64,000 nt of DNA from Allopontixanthobacter confluentis (lineage in GTDB: Bacteria; Pseudomonadota; Alphaproteobacteria; Sphingomonadales; Sphingomonadaceae). Numbering within the stretch: the stretch's first letter is position 1; every line of letters begins with the position of its first letter. Position numbers and translations under genes: made by a program. The stretch lies in the NCBI RefSeq assembly GCF_009827615.1, contig NZ_WTYU01000002.1, positions 851,020 through 915,019 of the forward strand. Direction: 5' to 3'. Below the pieces are notes generated by a model. It was given only the letters and a program-made list of their open reading frames with translations, did not search any database and had not been told where the DNA came from. Of the stretch, positions 599 through 10,946 are shown piece after piece.

Positions 599-787
599 AT
601 GGTTTTCTCCCCTGCATCGGGCTTACACTGCAGTCCGGCAAAACCGCTAGGCAAAACTTAACCACTATGTTGCAGGGGTGACATGGGGTCATACGCGCGG
701 CTAAGCAGACTGCGTGCTAGATACATTGGGGAGACCTGCCATGCTGTCGCCACGCCGCCGTGCTGCGGTCATAGCGAGAATTGCCAG

Positions 788-2623
788 ATGAGCGCGGGGG
801 GAACGCCGCGTATCCTGCTGGTGGTGGGGGGCGGTATTGCCGCCTATAAATCGTGCGAGCTGGTGCGGCTGATCCGCAAGGCTGGCGGCGATGTCACCTG
901 CGTGGTGACTGCCGGCGGCCAGCAATTCGTCACCCCCATGGCGCTGGCCGCGCTGAGTGAAAACCCTGTGCACACCACCTTGTGGGATCTGAAGAACGAA
1001 GCCGAGATGGGCCATATCCAGCTGAGCCGGGAGGCTGATCTGGTGGTGGTCTGCCCCGCAACGGCCGATTTGCTGGCCAAGATGGCAGCGGGCATTGCCG
1101 ATGATCTGGCGACCACGCTGATTCTGGCGACTGACAAGCCGGTGATGGCTGTGCCTGCCATGAATGTGCGGATGTGGCAGCATGATGCCACCCAGCGCAA
1201 CGTCACATGGCTGCGGCAGGCAGGCGTGCGGGTGGTAGAACCTGATGTAGGCCCGATGGCCTGCGGTGAATTTGGGCCGGGCCGGATGCCCGACCCGGAA
1301 GCCATCTGGGCGCAAATTGCTGAAATATTCGGCATGGCTCATGATTATGTTGCCCCTGCAGTCGAGGATTACGATGGCGAAGGCGACAGTGACTTCGAAG
1401 AGGACATCGAAGCGCTTGAGCCGGAACCTGAAATTGCAGCCAGAGGCGGCGGTTTTGGCGGCGGCTTTGGCGGCGGGAGCGGAGGCGGGCTGGGCGGCCT
1501 GCTGGCATCCCTCATCCCGCGCAGCACCCCCAAACGTGCGGCAGAGGAAATAGAGCAGGAATGGCTCGAGATGCCCGATGGCGCATGGCCAGAGGAAGGC
1601 GTCCCCGCGCCAGAAACAGGAGCTGAAACCGGGGCCGAGGCCGAAGCCGAAGCCGAAGCCGTGATCGAACCGGCAGCGGAACTCGCCAAGCCCGGTTTTT
1701 CCAGCCCGCTGCTCGCCACCAAGGGCAAGGCAGCGTCCGCGCCGCCAACCGACCCAGAAGCGATGAACCATCTGGTCATAACCGGGGCTGGCAAGGCCGC
1801 GCCGCAGCCGATCGAAGGTGACGAACATCGCATTACCATTGGCGATGGCGGGGCCGAAGAAAGCGGAAATGGCGCCAATGTAGAAGGCGAAAACGCGGAA
1901 GAACGGCTGGAATTTGATCCGCTCTATGGTCAGCCAGATTTCGATACCGATCCGGAACATCGCCCGCTTTACGGCAAGCATGTCCTGATCACTGCCGGGC
2001 CGACCCATGAACCGATTGATCCGGTGCGCTATATCGCCAACCGTTCATCGGGCAGGCAGGGGTTTGCCATTGCCGCAGCCGCCGCCAATGCAGGCGCGCG
2101 GGTAACGCTGGTAGCCGGGCCGGTTACCCTGGCCACTCCGCATGGGGTGGACCGGATTGACGTCGAATCAGCCCGCGAAATGGATGCAGCAGTGAAGAAT
2201 GCCCTGCCGGTTGATGTCGCCATCATGGTGGCTGCCGTGGCAGACTGGCGAACCAGGGACTTCATTGCCGAGAAGATGAAAAAGCGCGGCTCTGCCCCGC
2301 CGGCGCTGCGCCTGATGGAAAACCCCGACATTCTGGCCAGCGTGGCGGCTGGCACCAAGCGGCCCGGCCTGCTGATCGGCTTTGCCGCGGAAACGCAGGA
2401 TGTGCTGGAAAATGCGAAAATGAAACGCAAGCGCAAGGGCGTGGACTGGATTGTCGCCAACGACGTATCGGGCGATGTGATGGGGGGTGACAGAAACCGG
2501 GTGAACATTGTTACCGAAGCCGGTGTGGAAACGCTGGACGATATGCCCAAGGCCGATGTGGCCCGCGCGCTGATCGAACGCGTGGCCGATGCGCTGGCAG
2601 ATAAAGTGAATGACGATGACTGA
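788..2623 (+). CDS. coaBC: Bifunctional phosphopantothenoylcysteine decarboxylase / phosphopantothenate-cysteine ligase with a long low-complexity linker
   Basis: CoaBC makes 4'-phosphopantetheine for coenzyme A by coupling cysteine to phosphopantothenate and decarboxylating the product. The CoaC flavoprotein domain (residues 1 to about 182) starts with ILLVVGGGIAAYK and contains PAMNVRMW and the flap Cys in PMACGEFGPGRM. The CoaB domain (from about residue 394) has ITAGPTHEPIDPVRYI, NRSSGRQG and VANDVSG. Between them lies an unusual insert of about 210 residues rich in Gly repeats, Glu/Ala repeats and acidic stretches; the usual enzyme is about 400 residues, this one 611. The start at 788 is preferred because conserved sequence begins there; the frame is open upstream to 683. 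The stop overlaps the remnant start of the native dut. Confidence 0.95.
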   Translation: MSAGGTPRILLVVGGGIAAYKSCELVRLIRKAGGDVTCVVTAGGQQFVTPMALAALSENPVHTTLWDLKNEAEMGHIQLSREADLVVVCPATADLLAKMAAGIADDLATTLILATDKPVMAVPAMNVRMWQHDATQRNVTWLRQAGVRVVEPDVGPMACGEFGPGRMPDPEAIWAQIAEIFGMAHDYVAPAVEDYDGEGDSDFEEDIEALEPEPEIAARGGGFGGGFGGGSGGGLGGLLASLIPRSTPKRAAEEIEQEWLEMPDGAWPEEGVPAPETGAETGAEAEAEAEAVIEPAAELAKPGFSSPLLATKGKAASAPPTDPEAMNHLVITGAGKAAPQPIEGDEHRITIGDGGAEESGNGANVEGENAEERLEFDPLYGQPDFDTDPEHRPLYGKHVLITAGPTHEPIDPVRYIANRSSGRQGFAIAAAAANAGARVTLVAGPVTLATPHGVDRIDVESAREMDAAVKNALPVDVAIMVAAVADWRTRDFIAEKMKKRGSAPPALRLMENPDILASVAAGTKRPGLLIGFAAETQDVLENAKMKRKRKGVDWIVANDVSGDVMGGDRNRVNIVTEAGVETLDDMPKADVARALIERVADALADKVNDDD

Positions 2624-3802: not shown

Positions 3803-4471
3803 ATGCAATGTTCACATGATGAATTCCTGAAGAAGCCGGGTAAAAATCAGCTTGCCGGTTCGGCGGCGCGCCGTTCCCGTGCAGCAGATGCCGATACGCC
3901 TGAAAAGAACCGTGAACCTGTCGGCCTGCAAGACCTTATAGATGCGCTTACTGCTCTTGATGGCCGGTCAAGAATGGTTGTCCGGCGCGATGGCACGCTG
4001 ATAGCCGGAAGTTCGGTTCTGAACGAATTGTTCGAGACTGGCACTTGTCTTCTTCTTCACGCCGACACTGTCCGGACGGCGTTGCCGGAATATAGCGACC
4101 CGTTCCACGAATTGCTTCAGGTCAACGCGCCAGAAGTGCGCAATCTGGCTTTGCCGTATTCCAAAATTGATGGCCATATGATCCTTAGTGCAACGTCGCT
4201 GTGCAAGACGGCGGTGTGCATGAGTTTGCAGCGCGCCACGCAAATGGACCAGCCTGAACTGGCCGATCTGGAGGATGTGTTTCATCTGACCAAGGCCGAA
4301 GCGTCGATCGTTTACGGCCTGTTCATGGGGCATACGCCGCAGCAAATCGCCATCGAACTCGACAATTCGATCCATACAATCCGGGCGCATATCCGGAGGT
4401 GTTATGACAAGCTGGGCATCACCTGCCGCGAAGAATTGTGGCGCAAACTGAATGCCTACCGCTTGAAGTGA
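3803..4471 (+). CDS. LuxR-type HTH transcriptional regulator, likely controller of the amyloid operon
   Basis: The protein has 222 residues. Residues about 162-215 form a LuxR/GerE-type helix-turn-helix: LTKAEASIVYGLFMGHTPQQ followed by an HTIRAHIRRCYDKLG recognition-helix region. The N-terminal 150 residues match neither a receiver domain nor an autoinducer-binding domain that I recognise; they may be a degenerate sensory domain. The gene lies 264 bases upstream of the amyloid operon on the same strand, and the intervening DNA contains a four-copy hexamer dyad (4537-4573) in activator position. Control of the operon is inferred from this context. Confidence 0.85.
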   Translation: MQCSHDEFLKKPGKNQLAGSAARRSRAADADTPEKNREPVGLQDLIDALTALDGRSRMVVRRDGTLIAGSSVLNELFETGTCLLLHADTVRTALPEYSDPFHELLQVNAPEVRNLALPYSKIDGHMILSATSLCKTAVCMSLQRATQMDQPELADLEDVFHLTKAEASIVYGLFMGHTPQQIAIELDNSIHTIRAHIRRCYDKLGITCREELWRKLNAYRLK

Positions 4472-4536: not shown

Positions 4537-4573
4537 TAGTCAATAGTCATTTTTGACTATTTAATAATGACTA
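4537..4573. promoter_or_regulatory. Four-hexamer dyad, candidate operator of the amyloid operon
   Basis: Two direct copies of TAGTCA (4537-4542, 4544-4549) face two copies of TGACTA (4554-4559, 4568-4573). The inner pair extends to a perfect 8-bp inverted repeat (AATAGTCA/TGACTATT, loop TTTT, 4542-4561). A possible -10 element TATAGT lies at 4610-4615, which puts the dyad roughly 50-85 bases upstream of a start site, a usual activator position. Binding by the adjacent LuxR-type protein is inferred. Confidence 0.55.
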
Positions 4574-4735: not shown

Positions 4736-5236
4736 ATGCGTAAGGCAGTCAACATAAAACAATTGGTAATGCCAGTTCTTGGTTTGTTGATAGCTGCTGC
4801 AGCAGGCACAGCCCTTCCAGCACCGGTATTTGCCCAGCAATCGGCCACCAATGCGCCTGATGCCAATGAAGGTCAGGTCATCTATTCGCGCAATGTGCCA
4901 TATGGCACTGCGATCGGGCCGCGCACGCCGGGGCAGGCCAATACTGTGGTTACCGGTCCGACCAGCCTTCTTCTGCATAGCGTTGCAACCGGCCTTGAGC
5001 CGATTACCGATGATGAGAATGCAGGCATTGCCGCAGCGACCAGTTTGCAGGCCAGTCTTATTGGCAGCCATGTGATGAACGGGATGAGCGCTTTGTCCAA
5101 TATGGGCAGTTCCGGCGCAGCGTCCACCATTACTGCCGGACAGGGTTCAGCGACCAGCGGCGCGATCAGCCAGGCGACCGGCGCGCTCAGCGCTGCAATG
5201 AACAGTCTGCGCGGCGTTCTGGGTAACGGACAATGA
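4736..5236 (+). CDS. Small secreted protein, first gene of the Fap-like operon (FapA position)
   Basis: The protein has 166 residues with a signal peptide (basic start, hydrophobic residues about 10-28, cleavage near APVFAQ). The mature part is rich in Ala, Ser, Gly and Thr and has no cysteine; its C-terminal third looks helical. A GGGA ribosome binding site precedes ATG 4736. The stop overlaps the next start (ATGA at 5233-5236), so translation is probably coupled. In Pseudomonas the first fap gene encodes a small exported protein that affects amyloid composition. Equivalence here rests on position and size, not recognisable sequence identity. Confidence 0.7.
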   Translation: MRKAVNIKQLVMPVLGLLIAAAAGTALPAPVFAQQSATNAPDANEGQVIYSRNVPYGTAIGPRTPGQANTVVTGPTSLLLHSVATGLEPITDDENAGIAAATSLQASLIGSHVMNGMSALSNMGSSGAASTITAGQGSATSGAISQATGALSAAMNSLRGVLGNGQ

Positions 5237-5862
5237 TCATGCCAAAACCTCCCATTTGGCACACGGCCACCGCCCTACTGGCGCTGACCTGCGCCCCGCA
5301 AGTGGCGGCGCAGGACGCGCAGCAAATTACACCGCAGGTCAGCGATGAGGTGGTGGTGGCATCCAACAATGCCGCCGGCAGCACGGGCCGCATCGCAGTC
5401 AACATTGCCGCAGGCAATACGAACCAGCAGGCAGGCAGCGCAGTTGTCGCCATAGGTGACATTGCCCTGGCAGCGCAGTCTGTCAGCCAGCGCATGAGCG
5501 GGATGGCAGCCAGCGACCATATCACCGACATTACCGTGGGGGATGGTGCCTTTGCCGGCACCACCGGCCTCACCAGCATCAACATCACCGCCGGAGCGCA
5601 AAACCAGATGGCAAATCTGGCTCTGCTGGCGGTTGGGAATAGCGGCGTCATGTCCGACCAGCTCCTGGAGCAGTCGCGGGCGCCCATTCTACCGAAAGGG
5701 GGCAGCCTGGAAGGGACTGTGCCCGCCAATGACCGCATCGCCGTTGGCGATAGCACGTTTGGCGATGGCCATGGTCTGATCCAGGTAAACCTGATCGGCG
5801 GCGAGGGCAATTCCTCCGCCAACACCTTCGGCCTGTCAATTGCAGGCGAAGGATCACCCTGA
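5233..5862 (+). CDS. fapB: FapB-like amyloid-repeat protein
   Basis: The protein has 209 residues with a signal peptide (cleavage near PQVAAQ). It carries three imperfect repeats of the form G-x-I-x-V-N-I/L-x-x-G-x-x-N-x-x-A: about 52-75 (IAVNIAAGNTNQQAG), 112-135 (TSINITAGAQNQMAN) and 181-205 (IQVNLIGGEGNSSAN). Linkers of 36-45 residues separate them. Three Asn/Gln-rich repeats split by linkers is the layout of Pseudomonas FapB and FapC. The third repeat is degenerate. Being the smaller repeat protein just before the larger one, it fits the nucleator FapB. Start is ATG 5233 or ATG 5239. Confidence 0.8.
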   Translation: MIMPKPPIWHTATALLALTCAPQVAAQDAQQITPQVSDEVVVASNNAAGSTGRIAVNIAAGNTNQQAGSAVVAIGDIALAAQSVSQRMSGMAASDHITDITVGDGAFAGTTGLTSINITAGAQNQMANLALLAVGNSGVMSDQLLEQSRAPILPKGGSLEGTVPANDRIAVGDSTFGDGHGLIQVNLIGGEGNSSANTFGLSIAGEGSP

Positions 5863-5866
5863 ACTA

Positions 5867-5883
5867 CCCCCCCCCCAAAAAAA
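5867..5883 (+). repeat. C10-A7 homopolymer pair before fapC
   Basis: Ten C residues (5867-5876) are directly followed by seven A residues (5877-5883) in the 36-base gap between the fapB-like and fapC-like genes, just upstream of the AAGGAG ribosome binding site. Such runs slip during replication, so length could vary between cells or be a sequencing artefact. It lies outside both reading frames. Confidence 0.8.
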
Positions 5884-5898
5884 CCAAGGAGAAGGAAA

Positions 5899-6918
5899 AT
5901 GAGAAGTATTCTTATGGCCTCAGCCGCCGGTCTGGCAATGATTGCCGCGCCCGCACTGGCGCAAGACACAGGAGCCGATGGTGAAAGCTCGGTCGAAGTG
6001 GATCTGCGTTATGCCAATAACATTGACACCAGCGTCACCACTGATGTGACATATAACAAGAATGTTGCTCTTGGTGGTGCTGTCAGCCTGACCGGGGTCG
6101 TCAATGTCGACAGTTCCGCAGTCGCGGTGACGGATGCCAAGCAATTGCAGCAAGGCGTCCAGGTCACCTATCACGAGGAAAACGAACTGAACGGCGAGAA
6201 CGGCTTTGTCGATCCAGTGTTCGGACCTGGCGTCAGTGAATATGGTCAGGACCCTGCCGATGGCCTGCCAGACGGTGTGGTCCAGCCCCAGATTCGCGTG
6301 GGTTTCTTCGCGCCCATCATCAATACGGTCGAAACGTTTGATGTGGAAGGTTCGGGCAACATCGGTGTCAATCTGGCCGCTGGTTACTTTAATGACCAGA
6401 TGAACGCTGCGTCCATTGCGGTTTCCAGCAATTCCGATCCTGATGCCGTTGGTGGCTGGGCCGAAGCGTCGACCACTTCGCTGCAATCGCAGCTGGGTGT
6501 GGCACAGTTCCGCGCTGAAGATACGCTGGAAGAAGATGACATCAACAACTTCCGCGATCGTAACACCGTGGCAGGTGCGACCATTACCGGGTCGGGCAAC
6601 ATCGGCGTCAATGCGGCTGCGGGCAGTCTGAACCAGCAGGCCAATTTGATGACGTTGGCAGTGGCCAATAACACCACACTCTCCGAAGCCAATGCCGGCC
6701 TGATTCAGGCGACCACGATGTCGTTTGTCGAACAGCAGGACAGCATCAATGTCATAAGCGGACTGTCGATTGCCGGTGCATCGGGTAACATCGGCGTGAA
6801 CATGGCGTCGGGTGTTGGCAATCAGCAGCTGAATTCGCTGACGATTGCTGCGTCGCAAGGCGGTGCCGCTCCTGGCAACGGCAACGGCGGCAATGGCGGC
6901 AATGGCGGTGGTAGCTAA
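5899..6918 (+). CDS. fapC: FapC-like major amyloid-fibre protein
   Basis: The protein has 339 residues with a signal peptide (cleavage near APALAQ). Three well-conserved repeats sit at about residues 151-177, 231-257 and 294-320, each with the core SGNIGVN followed by A/S-G-x-x-N-x-Q-x-N and a hydrophobic stretch. Linkers of roughly 54 and 36 residues separate them. The acidic N-terminal 145 residues may hold a decayed fourth repeat near 60-80. The tail is Gly/Asn-rich (GNGGNGGNGGGS) and lacks the CXXC motif seen at the C-terminus of Pseudomonas FapC. Size, repeat conservation, strong AAGGAGAAGG ribosome binding site and position make it the likely main extracellular fibre subunit. Confidence 0.8.
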   Translation: MRSILMASAAGLAMIAAPALAQDTGADGESSVEVDLRYANNIDTSVTTDVTYNKNVALGGAVSLTGVVNVDSSAVAVTDAKQLQQGVQVTYHEENELNGENGFVDPVFGPGVSEYGQDPADGLPDGVVQPQIRVGFFAPIINTVETFDVEGSGNIGVNLAAGYFNDQMNAASIAVSSNSDPDAVGGWAEASTTSLQSQLGVAQFRAEDTLEEDDINNFRDRNTVAGATITGSGNIGVNAAAGSLNQQANLMTLAVANNTTLSEANAGLIQATTMSFVEQQDSINVISGLSIAGASGNIGVNMASGVGNQQLNSLTIAASQGGAAPGNGNGGNGGNGGGS

Positions 6919-6927
6919 GCCACTGGC

Positions 6928-7003
6928 GGGCGGAACCGCCCCCCCGCTGGTCTAGCCGTCCGTCAAGGGGGAAGGGCAGTAGCCTGTCTGGCGCTGCCCT
7001 TCC
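6928..7003 (+). promoter_or_regulatory. Two stem-loops between fapC and fapD
   Basis: GGGCGG-aa-CCGCCC (6928-6941) lies 10 bases after the fapC stop. A second hairpin has a perfect 10-bp stem, GGAAGGGCAG (6970-6979) with CTGCCCTTCC (6994-7003). Neither is followed by a T-run, so they are more likely RNA-stabilising or partial-attenuation structures than full terminators. This would let the fibre subunit be made in excess over the export genes. Confidence 0.5.
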
Positions 7004-7050
7004 TTGCCCCGCAAATCCCTGCTTCATTTCATGAAAAGTCCGCATTGCTC

Positions 7051-7776
7051 ATGTCTCAGCTTCCGCCCATCGTGTATCAGGCCCTGACGCCGCTGTTTGC
7101 CGTTACACTGGCAGGCTGCATGACGGCACCGGCCCAGAACGCGCCGCTATGGCTGGGACAGACAGCCGAGGGCGCCCGCATAACGCCAGTTTCGGTCACC
7201 AGCTGGAAAGATCGAAAATTTATGGGCCTGGTCCGGCAACGGACGGATTTCAGCTGCGGTGCTGCGGTCATGGCGACAATTTTCAACGAAGCATTCGGCC
7301 ACAGCACGACAGAGCAGCAGGTGCTGGTCAATATGCTCAAGATTGCCGATCCCGACATTGTGCGGGAAAAAGGCTTTTCCCTGCTGGATATGAAGACTTA
7401 CGCCCAATCCGTCGGCATGGAAGCTGAAGGCTACCAGCTGGATTATGACAAGCTGACCGCGATTGATCTGCCATCTGTCGCCCTGCTGGATATCAAGGGG
7501 TACAAGCATTTTGTCGTCATCCGCAAAGCGTTTGCAGACCGGGTGGCAATTGGCGACCCGGCTTTGGGCAACCGCACAATGTCCCGTGCGGACTTTCAAA
7601 AGGCGTGGAACGATGTCGCCTTCATCGTGGTGGGCGATGGGTATGATCCGCAAAATGCGTTGATCAACCCGCCTTCGCCGCTGTCCGCCAAGCGTCTGCT
7701 GGCGCTTCACGCCGCCCTTCCCGCTGCTGACACTGCCGAATTTGGCAACAATGCAGCATTCAGTTTCTCATTCTGA
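7051..7776 (+). CDS. fapD: C39-type cysteine peptidase, FapD-like lipoprotein
   Basis: The protein has 241 residues. The N-terminus has a lipobox, LAGC (Cys23), so it is probably a lipoprotein. The peptidase C39 fold is shown by the oxyanion Gln63 and catalytic Cys69 in QRTDFSCGAAV, His153 in YKHFVVI, and Asp169 in AIGDPALG. In the Pseudomonas operon FapD, also C39-like, occupies the same place and is required for amyloid secretion, possibly processing Fap proteins. A TTG two codons upstream (7045) is an alternative start; ATG 7051 gives a normal signal peptide. Confidence 0.88.
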   Translation: MSQLPPIVYQALTPLFAVTLAGCMTAPAQNAPLWLGQTAEGARITPVSVTSWKDRKFMGLVRQRTDFSCGAAVMATIFNEAFGHSTTEQQVLVNMLKIADPDIVREKGFSLLDMKTYAQSVGMEAEGYQLDYDKLTAIDLPSVALLDIKGYKHFVVIRKAFADRVAIGDPALGNRTMSRADFQKAWNDVAFIVVGDGYDPQNALINPPSPLSAKRLLALHAALPAADTAEFGNNAAFSFSF

Positions 7777-7788
7777 TGGAGAGTTACC

Positions 7789-8631
7789 ATGCGTATTTCG
7801 ACCTCCGTTCACACCTTGATGCTCCTGAGCCTTGCCGGCGCTGTATCGCTTGCCGCTGCAAGTCCGGCGGAGGCGCAGGAACGCGCGCCTTATGACGATG
7901 CAAAACTGGCAACGATCGGCGCCATTTTGCCGGATCCTGAGCTGGCCGATATGCGCGGCAAGTTCATGCGTCAGAATAATGTGTCATTTTTCGGCATAAG
8001 CTTGCTGACCAGCTGGCAGGATGCGCAAGGCATCACGACCAATGCGCGGCTGGTTTTCAACGTAGATTTTCTGAAACTGGGCACGGATGGAAAACCCACC
8101 CCGGCCCTGATGGTTGGCTGGCAGCGGGAAGGCGATCCGGCGATGGATGTGACCGACACCCATTCGGGATACGTCCCGCTCATGACGCCTGCCAATGTTT
8201 TGCCTGTCGGCGGGATCGGCACGCATCAGGGCGCGGCGCAGGCCAATGTCATTGCCGGAGCGAATAATCTGGCGCGCAACAACATGCAGATCGCCATTGT
8301 CCCTGCATCGGCAATTTCGGCTTTGTCGATGGCCGGACTGCAATCTGCTGATGGCACGACCAACATCGGCTTTGCAGATGGCGACCAGCTGCAGTTTCTC
8401 GCGGCAAACAACCAGATCGGCATTGTCATGACTGGCGGCGATGGGCTGGACAGTTCGCTACAGTCCCTGGGCAGCGATGTCGGGCAGATGCTGCAACAGA
8501 CCATGCTGAACACCAGCGGCAATTCCATCCTCAACTCAGCTTCCATCATCCTGGGGGCGGACAATTTTGCCCAGTCGCGCGGTGTCAGTCTGAATAGCGC
8601 GCTCAGCGCTATGAAGGGGCACGGATATTGA
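7789..8631 (+). CDS. Secreted protein in the FapE position
   Basis: The protein has 280 residues with a signal peptide (cleavage near PAEAQE). The early mature region, LADMRGKFMRQNN then VSFFGISLLTSWQDAQG, looks like a conserved short domain. The rest is Ala/Asn/Gly/Ser-rich with N-x-x-A-x-x-N patterns that recall the amyloid repeats (ANVIAGANNLARNNMQIA at about 152-169 and LGADNFAQSRGVSLNSALS near the end). No cysteine is present, unlike Pseudomonas FapE with its C-terminal CXC. It lies 12 bases after fapD, with GGAG before the start. It may be a minor fibre component or chaperone; assignment to FapE is by position only. Confidence 0.7.
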   Translation: MRISTSVHTLMLLSLAGAVSLAAASPAEAQERAPYDDAKLATIGAILPDPELADMRGKFMRQNNVSFFGISLLTSWQDAQGITTNARLVFNVDFLKLGTDGKPTPALMVGWQREGDPAMDVTDTHSGYVPLMTPANVLPVGGIGTHQGAAQANVIAGANNLARNNMQIAIVPASAISALSMAGLQSADGTTNIGFADGDQLQFLAANNQIGIVMTGGDGLDSSLQSLGSDVGQMLQQTMLNTSGNSILNSASIILGADNFAQSRGVSLNSALSAMKGHGY

Positions 8632-8662
8632 CTGAAATGTAAATCCCGGCGGGGGAAAACAG

Positions 8663-9253
8663 ATGAAGAAATCAATGCTGGCGGCCATGGCCGCAACCTT
8701 TATCGCTTCTGCGGCAAATGCTGCTGAGCCACACGACAACAGCTTTGCAGTGGAGGGCGCAGGTCGGTTCGACTGCGCCGCTTTCCTGACAGCGCGGCAG
8801 GATAAATCATCGGCTGAATATCAGCGCCTTATCGGCTTTGTCGAAGGCTATCTCAGCGCGGCGAACAGATATGAGCCCAACACATTCGACCTGACGCCGT
8901 GGCATAATGCCGCCGCGTTCGACATTATCCTGAATTCCCATTGCACCCAGCATGCGCAGGACACCGTCGTCAGCGTAGTTCAGCGCATGGTGACCGGCTT
9001 GCGGCCCGTTCGGGTGGCTCAGTTCTCGCCCCTGGTTGAGGTGGGCGATGCTAAGCACCGGGCGTTTGTTTACGAAGCAATCCTGCGCCGATCGCAGGCC
9101 GCCTTGAAAGTAAAGGGTCTCTACAAGGGCGAAGAAACCGGCAAGTTTACGCCCGAAATGCGCAATGCGCTGGCCGCCTTTCAGAAGCAGCATTCGCTGG
9201 ATGCCACAGGTGTTCCCGACCCGGCGACCCTATGGACTCTCCTCAATCCCTGA
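8663..9253 (+). CDS. Secreted protein with C-terminal peptidoglycan-binding domain, extra gene of the Fap-like operon
   Basis: The protein has 196 residues with a signal peptide (cleavage near AANAAE). Residues about 30-115 are a helical domain with two cysteines (FDCAAFL and NSHCTQH, likely a disulfide) and the motif IGFVEGYLSAANRY, resembling small periplasmic helical domains of the Rap1a/HdeA type. Residues about 145-196 fit a type 1 peptidoglycan-binding domain: LYKGEETGKFTPEMRNALAAF followed by TGVPDPATLWTLL. It is inserted between the FapE-position gene and the fapF-like gene; the Pseudomonas operon has no such gene. I infer a periplasmic anchor tying the export pore to the wall. Confidence 0.75.
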   Translation: MKKSMLAAMAATFIASAANAAEPHDNSFAVEGAGRFDCAAFLTARQDKSSAEYQRLIGFVEGYLSAANRYEPNTFDLTPWHNAAAFDIILNSHCTQHAQDTVVSVVQRMVTGLRPVRVAQFSPLVEVGDAKHRAFVYEAILRRSQAALKVKGLYKGEETGKFTPEMRNALAAFQKQHSLDATGVPDPATLWTLLNP

Positions 9254-9310
9254 ACTTTCAGACCCATACCAGTGCCGGCACGGCGGAGTAGCAAAACAGG
9301 AAGATTAAAC

Positions 9311-10741
9311 ATGCGCCATGATCTGACATCGAAAGCATCGATAATCGCTTCAGCGGTTGCCACATCAGGCGCGGCGATTTTCCTGCCGCCGTCAGCCTAT
9401 GCGCAGGATGCCCCTCTGACAGGCAGTGCCATGCAGTCTTCTGATGCAGATAGCCGCGCCGATGCGGAAATCATGTCACTGCGGGCGCAAGTCGCCATTC
9501 TCGAAGCCCGCGAGCAGGAAGCGCGCAGGCGAGTGCAGTCCCTCGAGGAACGTCTGTTGCGACTGGAACAGTTCGATGTAGAACCCATCACCGGCGATGA
9601 AGCGGCCGGCATTCGTGGTCGTTATGCGCAAGGTGAAGCACAAGCCCGGTCGTCAGATCCAGGATTCCGGCGCTTTCCCATGCCCGCGTTCGGCTTCCCC
9701 GAGCAGACGTCCAGTAATCTTGTCGTGCAGCAGCCTGAGCAAAACAATGATACAGCCGCCGTATCCGGAGTGGACCGCAAGGCCCCTGCGCCAACCACCG
9801 CGCAGGAAAATGTGACACAGCAGCAGCAAGGCACTTTCGGGCGACGGTTCGGTGTCGAACTGGGTGCATCCTATACCCATTTTAGCAATGCCAGAATCAA
9901 TCTCGACGGGTTTCTGGCGCTGGATGCCATTTTTCTGGGCACGATCAGTATTGACCAGATTAAAGCCGATATATTCACGCTTGAACCTTCGGTCGATCTC
10001 GGCCTGTCTGACCGGCTTTTCGTCGACGCCAGCCTGCCGATCCTCTCGCGCACGTCGAACTTCCAGTCGGGCGGTGCCGGCGGATCGGCAGCGGGCCTGG
10101 TTGAACGCACGGTCCATGGCACAGGTATTGGTGACGCCAGCGTAGGCCTGAGTTACCGGATGCTGGCGGAAACCACCGACTTGCCCGATGTCGTGCTCAA
10201 CGGAAGGGTTAAATTCCCTACCGGAAAGCATCCGTTCGGAATTGAGTTTACCGAAGTAGAAGGCAGCGAAGGCAACCTGTCGATCCCTGAACGGCTATCG
10301 TTCGGCACGGGCGTATATGGTGTGTCCCTCGGCTTTTCGATGCTCAAGACACTGGATCCGATGATTGTGTTCGGCAGTGCGACCTATTTTCACAATTTCA
10401 AACGCAGCTTTGCCGATATCGATGAAACGCCAGGTGATCAGCCCGGCAAGGTTAAATTGGGCGATGCCGTCCAGTTTGGTGCCGGCCTTGCCTTTGCGCT
10501 TAACGACAAATCGAGCATATCGATGTCCTACACCCAGCGCATTGTCGAGCGCACGCGCCTGACGCCCGATCTTCAGACTGACCGTTTCGTCGTTGGCAGC
10601 CAGGCCAATGTCGGCCTTGTGAATCTTGGTGCCACATTCTCGCTTGGCGAGAATGTGGCACTGGTGACAAATGTAGGCATAGGCCTGACAGACGACAGCC
10701 CGGACATGGCACTGAGCATCCGGGTTCCCTACCGTTTCTAG
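9311..10741 (+). CDS. fapF: FapF-like outer-membrane export channel with N-terminal coiled coil
   Basis: The protein has 476 residues with a signal peptide (cleavage near PSAYAQ). Residues about 51-88 form a heptad-patterned coiled coil (EIMSLRAQVAILEAREQEA and following). A disordered linker runs to about 175. Residues about 178-476 alternate in beta-barrel fashion and end in the outer-membrane signature VPYRF with terminal Phe. Coiled coil plus plug/linker plus barrel is the architecture of FapF, the pore that secretes FapB and FapC. A frame extends upstream to 9272, but ATG 9311 has ACAGGAAG before it and begins the signal peptide. Confidence 0.82.
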   Translation: MRHDLTSKASIIASAVATSGAAIFLPPSAYAQDAPLTGSAMQSSDADSRADAEIMSLRAQVAILEAREQEARRRVQSLEERLLRLEQFDVEPITGDEAAGIRGRYAQGEAQARSSDPGFRRFPMPAFGFPEQTSSNLVVQQPEQNNDTAAVSGVDRKAPAPTTAQENVTQQQQGTFGRRFGVELGASYTHFSNARINLDGFLALDAIFLGTISIDQIKADIFTLEPSVDLGLSDRLFVDASLPILSRTSNFQSGGAGGSAAGLVERTVHGTGIGDASVGLSYRMLAETTDLPDVVLNGRVKFPTGKHPFGIEFTEVEGSEGNLSIPERLSFGTGVYGVSLGFSMLKTLDPMIVFGSATYFHNFKRSFADIDETPGDQPGKVKLGDAVQFGAGLAFALNDKSSISMSYTQRIVERTRLTPDLQTDRFVVGSQANVGLVNLGATFSLGENVALVTNVGIGLTDDSPDMALSIRVPYRF

Positions 10742-10751
10742 AGGCTGGCTG

Positions 10752-10946
10752 ATGGGCCAAAACAAGGATAGCGCCAGGACAAAAACCAGGCGTTGTATTG
10801 TGGCAGAGATGGTGGGCGCCGACACAAAGCCGCAGCTTCCTGAATTGTCTATGACACAATTCATTCCTGGACCGCCTGCCAGCGGACATCAGCGCACGGA
10901 TGATGAAATATCGGCCTTGTCAGACAATTCTGACAGTATGCTTTAA
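10752..10946 (+). CDS. Possible small ORF at the tail of the Fap-like operon
   Basis: A 64-codon ORF begins 10 bases after the fapF stop, with AGAGG seven bases before ATG, and ends 19 bases before a strong terminator. The product is hydrophilic, has one Cys and no recognised domain. Placement between the last operon gene and the terminator favours it, but composition alone does not, so it may be chance. Confidence 0.3.
   Translation: MGQNKDSARTKTRRCIVAEMVGADTKPQLPELSMTQFIPGPPASGHQRTDDEISALSDNSDSML

Follow-up and report, generated by a model that had tools for sequence, protein, structure and literature searches.

A Fap-type functional-amyloid operon with an added peptidoglycan-binding gene in Allopontixanthobacter confluentis

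A 64,000-nucleotide stretch of the Allopontixanthobacter confluentis genome (contig NZ_WTYU01000002.1, positions 851,020 to 915,019; hereafter the window) almost certainly holds a complete Fap functional-amyloid system of the kind studied in Pseudomonas. Seven open reading frames on one strand occupy window positions 4736-10741 (6.0 kb) in the order FapA-B-C-D-E-X-F, where X is a working name for an extra gene. The best explanation of the whole, given a probability of roughly 0.85, is a Fap operon with two branch-specific features, gene X and an anchored FapD peptidase, in which FapE undergoes cleavage. Such an operon would extend the Fap amyloids, with experimental access, to the sphingomonads, and it would supply a conserved seventh Fap component, X, that is not described in the searchable literature.

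Identity of the operon

A first-pass annotation, made from the letters of this DNA, had read the seven consecutive genes as following the order of Pseudomonas fapABCDEF. This reading holds. The open reading frames lie where it placed them, and six NCBIfam Fap models pick out six of the genes in the fapABCDEF order, with the E-values given below. The profile comparison that it had proposed for the two repeat proteins and the barrel likewise comes out in favor of FapB, FapC and FapF. The seven genes and the features that flank them are as follows.

4736-5236, plus strand: FapA-like small secreted protein; NCBIfam FapA models at 3.7e-4 and 3.1e-3, position and conservation.
5233-5862, plus strand: FapB, minor subunit and proposed nucleator; NCBIfam FapB 1.5e-20 over residues 14-203, three imperfect repeats.
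5899-6918, plus strand: FapC, major fiber subunit; NCBIfam FapC 1.1e-21, three imperfect repeats.
7045-7776, plus strand: FapD, C39 cysteine peptidase and predicted lipoprotein; NCBIfam FapD 3.4e-67, Pfam Peptidase_C39 4.5e-22.
7789-8631, plus strand: FapE, secreted fiber-associated protein; NCBIfam FapE 6.2e-16, leader-like motif D49-F59.
8663-9253, plus strand: gene X; signal peptide, HdeA-like N-domain, C-terminal PG_binding_1 at 3.1e-12.
9272-10741, plus strand: FapF, outer-membrane export barrel with an N-terminal periplasmic coiled-coil-like region; NCBIfam FapF 3.8e-97, structure 5o65 at 1.4e-76.
3803-4471, plus strand: LuxR-type (GerE helix-turn-helix) regulator that probably controls the operon; Pfam GerE 2e-6, 27.8 bits against a cut-off of 23.5.
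4542-4561, no strand assigned: inverted repeat AATAGTCA-TTTT-TGACTATT in the spacer between the regulator and fapA; putative, possibly an operator, not kept in other genomes.
10917-10936, plus strand: hairpin 3' of fapF, a weak candidate for a terminator; such sites are no commoner in the region than in shuffles.

The genes are tightly packed, with intergenic spacings from fapA to fapF of -4, 36, 126, 12, 31 and 18 nt. Membership in the Fap family was judged by the presence of at least four fap-type genes clustered (less than 5 kb apart in the published rule) in the fapABCDEF order; six models match in order within 6.0 kb, with neighbors no more than 126 nt apart, X aside. A second criterion is the presence of FapE together with FapA, the latter often missing in known operons; here FapE is found at 6e-16 and FapA at 3.7e-4, weak but in the right position. 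Comparison covered 398 Sphingomonadales genomes, a sample of 385 alphaproteobacteria, a phylum sample, and 11 fap loci from outside the alphaproteobacteria (non-alpha loci). A survey of sphingomonads for the same gene order, also suggested by the annotation, finds it kept in 21 distinct loci (one with fapF inverted) and in one locus of another alphaproteobacterial family. The seven-gene order is not due to chance, because it is kept in about 20 other genomes.

The two subunit proteins carry three repeats each, as the annotation had stated. Those of FapB are at residues 52, 112 and 181, while FapC has three imperfect copies of GN-I-G-V-N-x-A-A/S-G-x-x-N at residues 153, 233 and 296. The pattern G-x3-[hydrophobic]-N-x2-[AGS]-G-x2-N occurs three times in each protein, against means of 0.002 and 0.005 and a maximum of 1 in 2,000 shuffles. 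The three and three copies found here agree with the consensus in the literature and with the statement there that three repeats are almost universal (PMC12392863). A profile built from sphingomonad sequences only, namely the window FapC and four relatives, matches the FapC chains 9nqd and 9u4u solved by cryo-electron microscopy at 1e-12. No second FapC-like gene was found elsewhere in the genome.

The seventh gene, called an outer-membrane barrel from the letters, is confirmed as FapF by the match of the window protein alone to the FapF crystal structure 5o65 at an E-value of 1.4e-76. It is 34-36% identical to the non-alpha FapF proteins aligned. Its N-terminal region shows an aligned heptad-like stretch at about residues 69-99, and the coiled-coil chain 6fue is matched at 3e-5 by a FapF profile that included non-alpha sequences.

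Several observations weigh against the identification. On sequence grounds FapA is the least well supported of the six genes (3.7e-4), and all window Fap proteins score below the NCBIfam curated equivalog cut-offs. Only the first of the two PTG motifs of FapF is kept, at residue 316, the second being SFG at about residue 343. An AlphaFold2 model of FapC from five rows reached a predicted local distance difference test (pLDDT) score of 34, was unusable and was set aside. The equivalog cut-offs are a naming threshold rather than a defining trait, and in the phylum sample 14 of the 21 genomes matched by the FapE model fall below them as well, so the low scores are taken to reflect how the cut-offs were set and not failed membership. 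Similarly, the PTG motifs are a reported conserved detail of FapF and not a requirement of the system.

The repeat proteins might instead be secreted fibers of a non-amyloid kind, a Fil-like pilus or an adhesin exported by the C39/barrel pair. FapD and FapF do score with the FilB and FilC models (5e-33 and 1.5e-16), and related genomes have C39/barrel pairs beside other N-rich repeat proteins. However, the Fap models far outscore the Fil models, the C39/barrel pairs lacking FapB and FapC fall in a separate clade (100/100 in a tree of FapD and FapF), and the FapC repeats match FapC of the solved amyloid structures, which makes this alternative very unlikely. It is more improbable still that the operon is a non-functional relic, either in decay or recently acquired by transfer. 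Its sparse occurrence, in about 5% of sampled Sphingomonadales and two of six genomes of its own genus, would fit such an origin, but the reading frames are all intact, the catalytic residues are kept, and the loci form one sphingomonad clade over several genera. By analogy with Pseudomonas, the operon would very probably form its fibers on the cell surface.

The added gene X

X consists of a signal peptide, an N-domain of about 90 residues with two cysteines, and a C-terminal PG_binding_1 domain. The last of these bears out the annotation's extra peptidoglycan-binding gene, scoring 46.9 bits against a cut-off of 23 in the window protein and matching in 21 of 21 X members. In 20 of the 21 sphingomonad operons X separates fapE from fapF, and it has the same place in locus L048 (genome G522), which belongs to another alphaproteobacterial family. 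It is present in none of the 11 non-alpha fap operons, whose genomes have no full-length X anywhere and show partial matches to the wall-binding domain only. Strong matches (E<1e-79) occur in 18 of the 398 Sphingomonadales genomes, all among the 19 with fap, and in 0 of the other 379. Weaker, distant homologues are found in 13 of these genomes without a fap locus, and about 10 of the 289 genomes in the class sample carry weaker full-length homologues, which mostly do not adjoin fap genes.

The fap-linked sphingomonad X proteins form one clade (100/100). Because strong X tracks fap and forms a single clade while distant homologues occur elsewhere, X forms a branch dedicated to fap within a larger family, and it is very likely a dedicated component of the Fap system. 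The same distant homologues, being mostly apart from fap or in genomes without it, are what would be expected if X were a bystander from the wider alphaproteobacterial family with no part in fiber export. This is unlikely given the exact fapE-fapF position of X across several genera, its presence with fap in 18 of 19 genomes against 0 of 379, and the support for its clade. A single recruitment of X to fap in alphaproteobacteria gives approximately unbiased (AU) test p values of 0.49 on FapD and FapF and 0.32 on X.

One sphingomonad operon, in genome G304 (L034:3117-8813), is the sole exception to this arrangement. Its fapF is inverted and placed ahead of the operon, no X is found genome-wide, and its FapD has no lipobox; the three departures co-occur. 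Full-length X homologues away from fap were seen in several alphaproteobacterial families at loci L106, L107, L109, L112 and L113; in L106 the homologue sits between acyl-CoA carboxylase-pathway and deacetylase-like genes.

The role of the N-domain is the point at which two readings of X divide. Residues C38, C94, E61-G62-Y63 and W80 are invariant in 21 X sequences, and the cysteine pair aligns with the cysteines of the Escherichia coli chaperones HdeA and HdeB. The Pfam HdeA model reaches E<0.05 in six of 21 X members, and a stand-alone homologue of the N-domain (L116) scores 31.2 bits, above the Pfam cut-off of 22. The AlphaFold2 model of X is helical, but its pLDDT of 58 overall is too low to support a comparison of folds. 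Other results tell against a chaperone: the HdeA match of the window X itself is under the cut-off (E 0.022, 15.6 bits against 22), a profile comparison of X with E. coli HdeA alone (hhalign) is weak at a probability of 8.7, and a Foldseek search with the X model matched the wall-binding domain only, the fold of the N-domain finding no match. A scan of FapA, FapE and X against PHROGs gave nothing useful beyond endolysin-type wall-binding matches.

X may be a plain peptidoglycan tether or localization factor that positions FapD or the trimeric FapF at the wall, its N-domain being no chaperone, a reading given somewhat less than an even chance. In X the peptidoglycan-binding domain alone is assigned beyond doubt, the N-terminal region of FapF in the periplasm is long, and in Pseudomonas a chaperone role is already filled by FapA (PMC12822426). 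On the other side stand the strong conservation of the N-domain and its relationship to stand-alone proteins, one of them above the HdeA cut-off. The opposite view, that X is a chaperone and not just a tether, is put forward tentatively, at a little under even odds.

FapD, FapE and a proposed export route

FapD keeps the intact Cys/His/Asp triad of a C39 peptidase that the first-pass annotation had reported, as Cys71, His155 and Asp171, together with Gln65. At its N-terminus the window protein has the lipobox LAGC. With a lipobox defined as [LVI]-[ASTVI]-[GAS]-C following a hydrophobic segment, a lipobox-like cysteine is present in 20 of 21 sphingomonad FapD proteins, some of them departing from the pattern at one position, while the signal peptide is of the ordinary kind in most non-alpha FapD proteins and in the one from G522. 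FapD therefore looks membrane-anchored, a trait specific to sphingomonads. In E. coli, lipoproteins are sorted by the residue after the lipobox cysteine. In most sphingomonad FapD proteins this residue is M, A, S or T, and the rule would then suggest an outer-membrane location.

FapD activity is needed for secretion in Pseudomonas, where its target has been described as unclear; in Pseudomonas sp. UK4 the C38A substitution in FapD abolishes secretion, and FapE is the sole Fap protein with complete N-terminal processing (PMC5557850). The same study noted GG and GA motifs in FapE, yet considered canonical C39 sequences to be lacking. The motif D-x-x-[LM]-x4-G-[KRG]-[FYW] lies near the N-terminus in 33 of 33 FapE proteins compared here and in 0.4% of shuffles, and in practice it always ends in G-[KR]-[FY]. 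In the window FapE it reads D49-P-E-L-A-D-M-R-G-K-F59. C39 peptidases of bacteriocin exporters cut double-glycine leaders of consensus LSxxELxxIxGG. None of the 33 FapE proteins has the GG or GA leader end at the cut site, G-[KR] standing there instead; GG is found only in the FapE-like protein of L080, a C39/barrel locus without FapB or FapC, whose LSNEELADLRGGF contains a true double glycine and so fits the leader consensus.

From these patterns we propose FapE as a candidate FapD substrate, with the motif as its recognition and cut site; the chances that FapD cuts FapE at the R-G position are about even. Both the lipobox and the leader-like motif are patterns of sequence alone, which counts against the combined explanation. 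The motif makes the question of the FapD target answerable by N-terminal sequencing, Pseudomonas included. Small secreted proteins with FapE-like leader stretches were also seen beside other C39 genes, at L047:9195-9704 (ISEAELAATTGRE), L083:6248-6757 (VVDDKALAKIAGRED), L114:11827-12264 (SDGELEASRGM) and L080:7265-7822 (LSNEELADLRGGF).

A possible route follows from homology and gene order, with the roles of the Fap proteins taken from work on Pseudomonas. Read by eye, FapA, FapB, FapC, FapE, FapF and X have Sec-type signal sequences and FapD a lipoprotein signal, so that all seven proteins are expected in the periplasm. There FapA would hold FapC, and FapB, unfolded, and a trimeric FapF barrel with its periplasmic coiled coil would export FapB, FapC and FapE. 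FapC would then polymerize on FapB into surface amyloid fibers anchored by FapE. X, tethered to the wall near FapF, would hold unfolded subunits or dock the export complex to the wall, and membrane-anchored FapD would cut FapE immediately C-terminal to the conserved R-G in the leader-like motif. In its full form this amounts to a wall-anchored Fap variant of Alphaproteobacteria, in which a peptidoglycan-tethered HdeA-like chaperone feeds FapF and FapD, anchored in the outer membrane, processes FapE at a leader of degenerate double-glycine type that every FapE shares. Taken together these details are doubtful, but if true they would name both the substrate of FapD and its site.

Distribution and relation to known systems

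The FapE model matches 23 of the 398 Sphingomonadales genomes, of which 19 are convincing (about 5%); three of the four weak cases have C39/barrel pairs without FapB or FapC, and one has no Fap genes. FapF is found in two of six genomes of the window's own genus. Named carriers are Parasphingorhabdus flavimaris, Pontixanthobacter luteolus, an uncultured Erythrobacter and a metagenome-assembled Sphingomonadaceae genome. Outside the family, the sample of 385 alphaproteobacteria contains one genome with a fap operon, G522. In the FapD and FapF tree the 21 sphingomonad loci form one clade (100/97), and the 11 non-alpha loci group together (92/91), with G522 joining them weakly (83/55); an alphaproteobacterial clade is not rejected on the same data (AU p 0.49). 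Of the 19 sphingomonad loci whose upstream region is covered, 16 have a LuxR-type regulator directly 5' of fap, and P. flavimaris has a Crp/Fnr-like regulator there instead (L003:2321-3052). The annotation had foreseen a distinct alphaproteobacterial branch with its own regulator and an added gene; the clade, the 20 of 21 operons with X and the 16 of 19 with the regulator agree with it, the regulator being usual rather than universal.

No regulatory site is claimed, because a search for a shared operator in the upstream DNA of 16 loci found no word common to more than four of them. Promoter-like and terminator-like sites in the region are no more frequent than in shuffles. Further from the operon, the CoaBC (Dfp) open reading frame at window positions 683-2623 (646 residues) carries, in translation, an acidic Gly-rich insertion of about 200 residues between its two domains.

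Several other loci show unusual arrangements. Genome G852 has two tandem fap sets (B-C-D-E) at L072:2736-12266; double fap clusters are very rare in a published survey (PMC12392863). A non-alpha operon has a PAS-GGDEF (diguanylate cyclase-like) gene between fapE and fapF (L074:7870-8886), which suggests built-in cyclic di-GMP control. A FapD-like C39 peptidase and a FapF-like barrel without FapB or FapC are found at L114:8168-15909, L080:4984-15001, L047:6108-10915, L083:5797-9361 and L084:5705-9735. These loci adjoin N-rich repeat proteins, with QQNNG repeats over 838 residues in L114 and more than 1,900 in L080, and SDSGN or SFDDNS repeats in L047 and L083; an X homologue lies directly upstream of the L114 locus. 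Such pairs may represent another fiber system in alphaproteobacteria.

The annotation's statement that Fap operons were described in gamma-, beta- and deltaproteobacteria reflects a 2013 result and has been overtaken. Dueholm found Fap limited to these three classes in 2013 (PMC3792158), 25 genera named only in a figure were added in 2018 (PMC6173800), and a 2025 GTDB survey counted 1,602 fap clusters, with canonical synteny in more than 90%, across numerous families of the Pseudomonadota as well as in Desulfobacterota, Nitrospirota and Bacillota (PMC12822426). The searched text of these papers does not name Alphaproteobacteria. No paper describing Fap in Alphaproteobacteria, Sphingomonas, Sphingomonadales or Erythrobacter was found in the searchable literature, in which the survey genera are named partly in figures. 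Alphaproteobacterial operons are probably contained in these surveys. The novelty is the architecture of the branch, X and the FapD lipobox, and not the Fap system as such; the FapE motif is of interest beside it.

A comparison with the Pseudomonas system (FapF 5o65, FapC 9nqd/9u4u) shows six shared genes of unchanged order and orientation, FapB and FapC with three repeats apiece, a C39 FapD with an intact active site, a FapF barrel with a coiled-coil-like N-terminal region, and FapE. The sphingomonad operon, in contrast, adds X between fapE and fapF and has a lipobox in FapD. The window FapF lacks one of the two PTG motifs, the window FapC has no cysteines, and a LuxR-type regulator stands directly upstream. 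The G522 operon shares fapB-C-D-E-X-F, with Fap models matching B, C, D, E and F and X in the same place, but no fapA was found in it, its FapD has no lipobox and both PTG motifs are kept.

More distant systems share single parts. HdeA and HdeB (PF06411) resemble the N-domain of X, a small periplasmic domain predicted to be helical, whose two cysteines align with theirs, whereas X falls under the Pfam cut-off, carries a wall-binding domain in the same chain and matches the E. coli HdeA profile weakly. The FapE stretch D-x-E-L-x-x-M-R-G-[KR]-[FY] resembles the double-glycine leaders cut by the C39 domains of bacteriocin ATP-binding cassette (ABC) exporters, and the L080 protein has the GG itself; in place of the second glycine all FapE proteins examined have K or R, and FapD is a periplasmic, stand-alone enzyme that is not part of an ABC exporter. 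Finally, the putative FilBC pilus system and the C39/barrel pairs without FapB or FapC have in common with Fap a C39 peptidase and a FapF-related barrel, but they lack the FapB and FapC repeats, and the sampled pairs branch as a separate clade.

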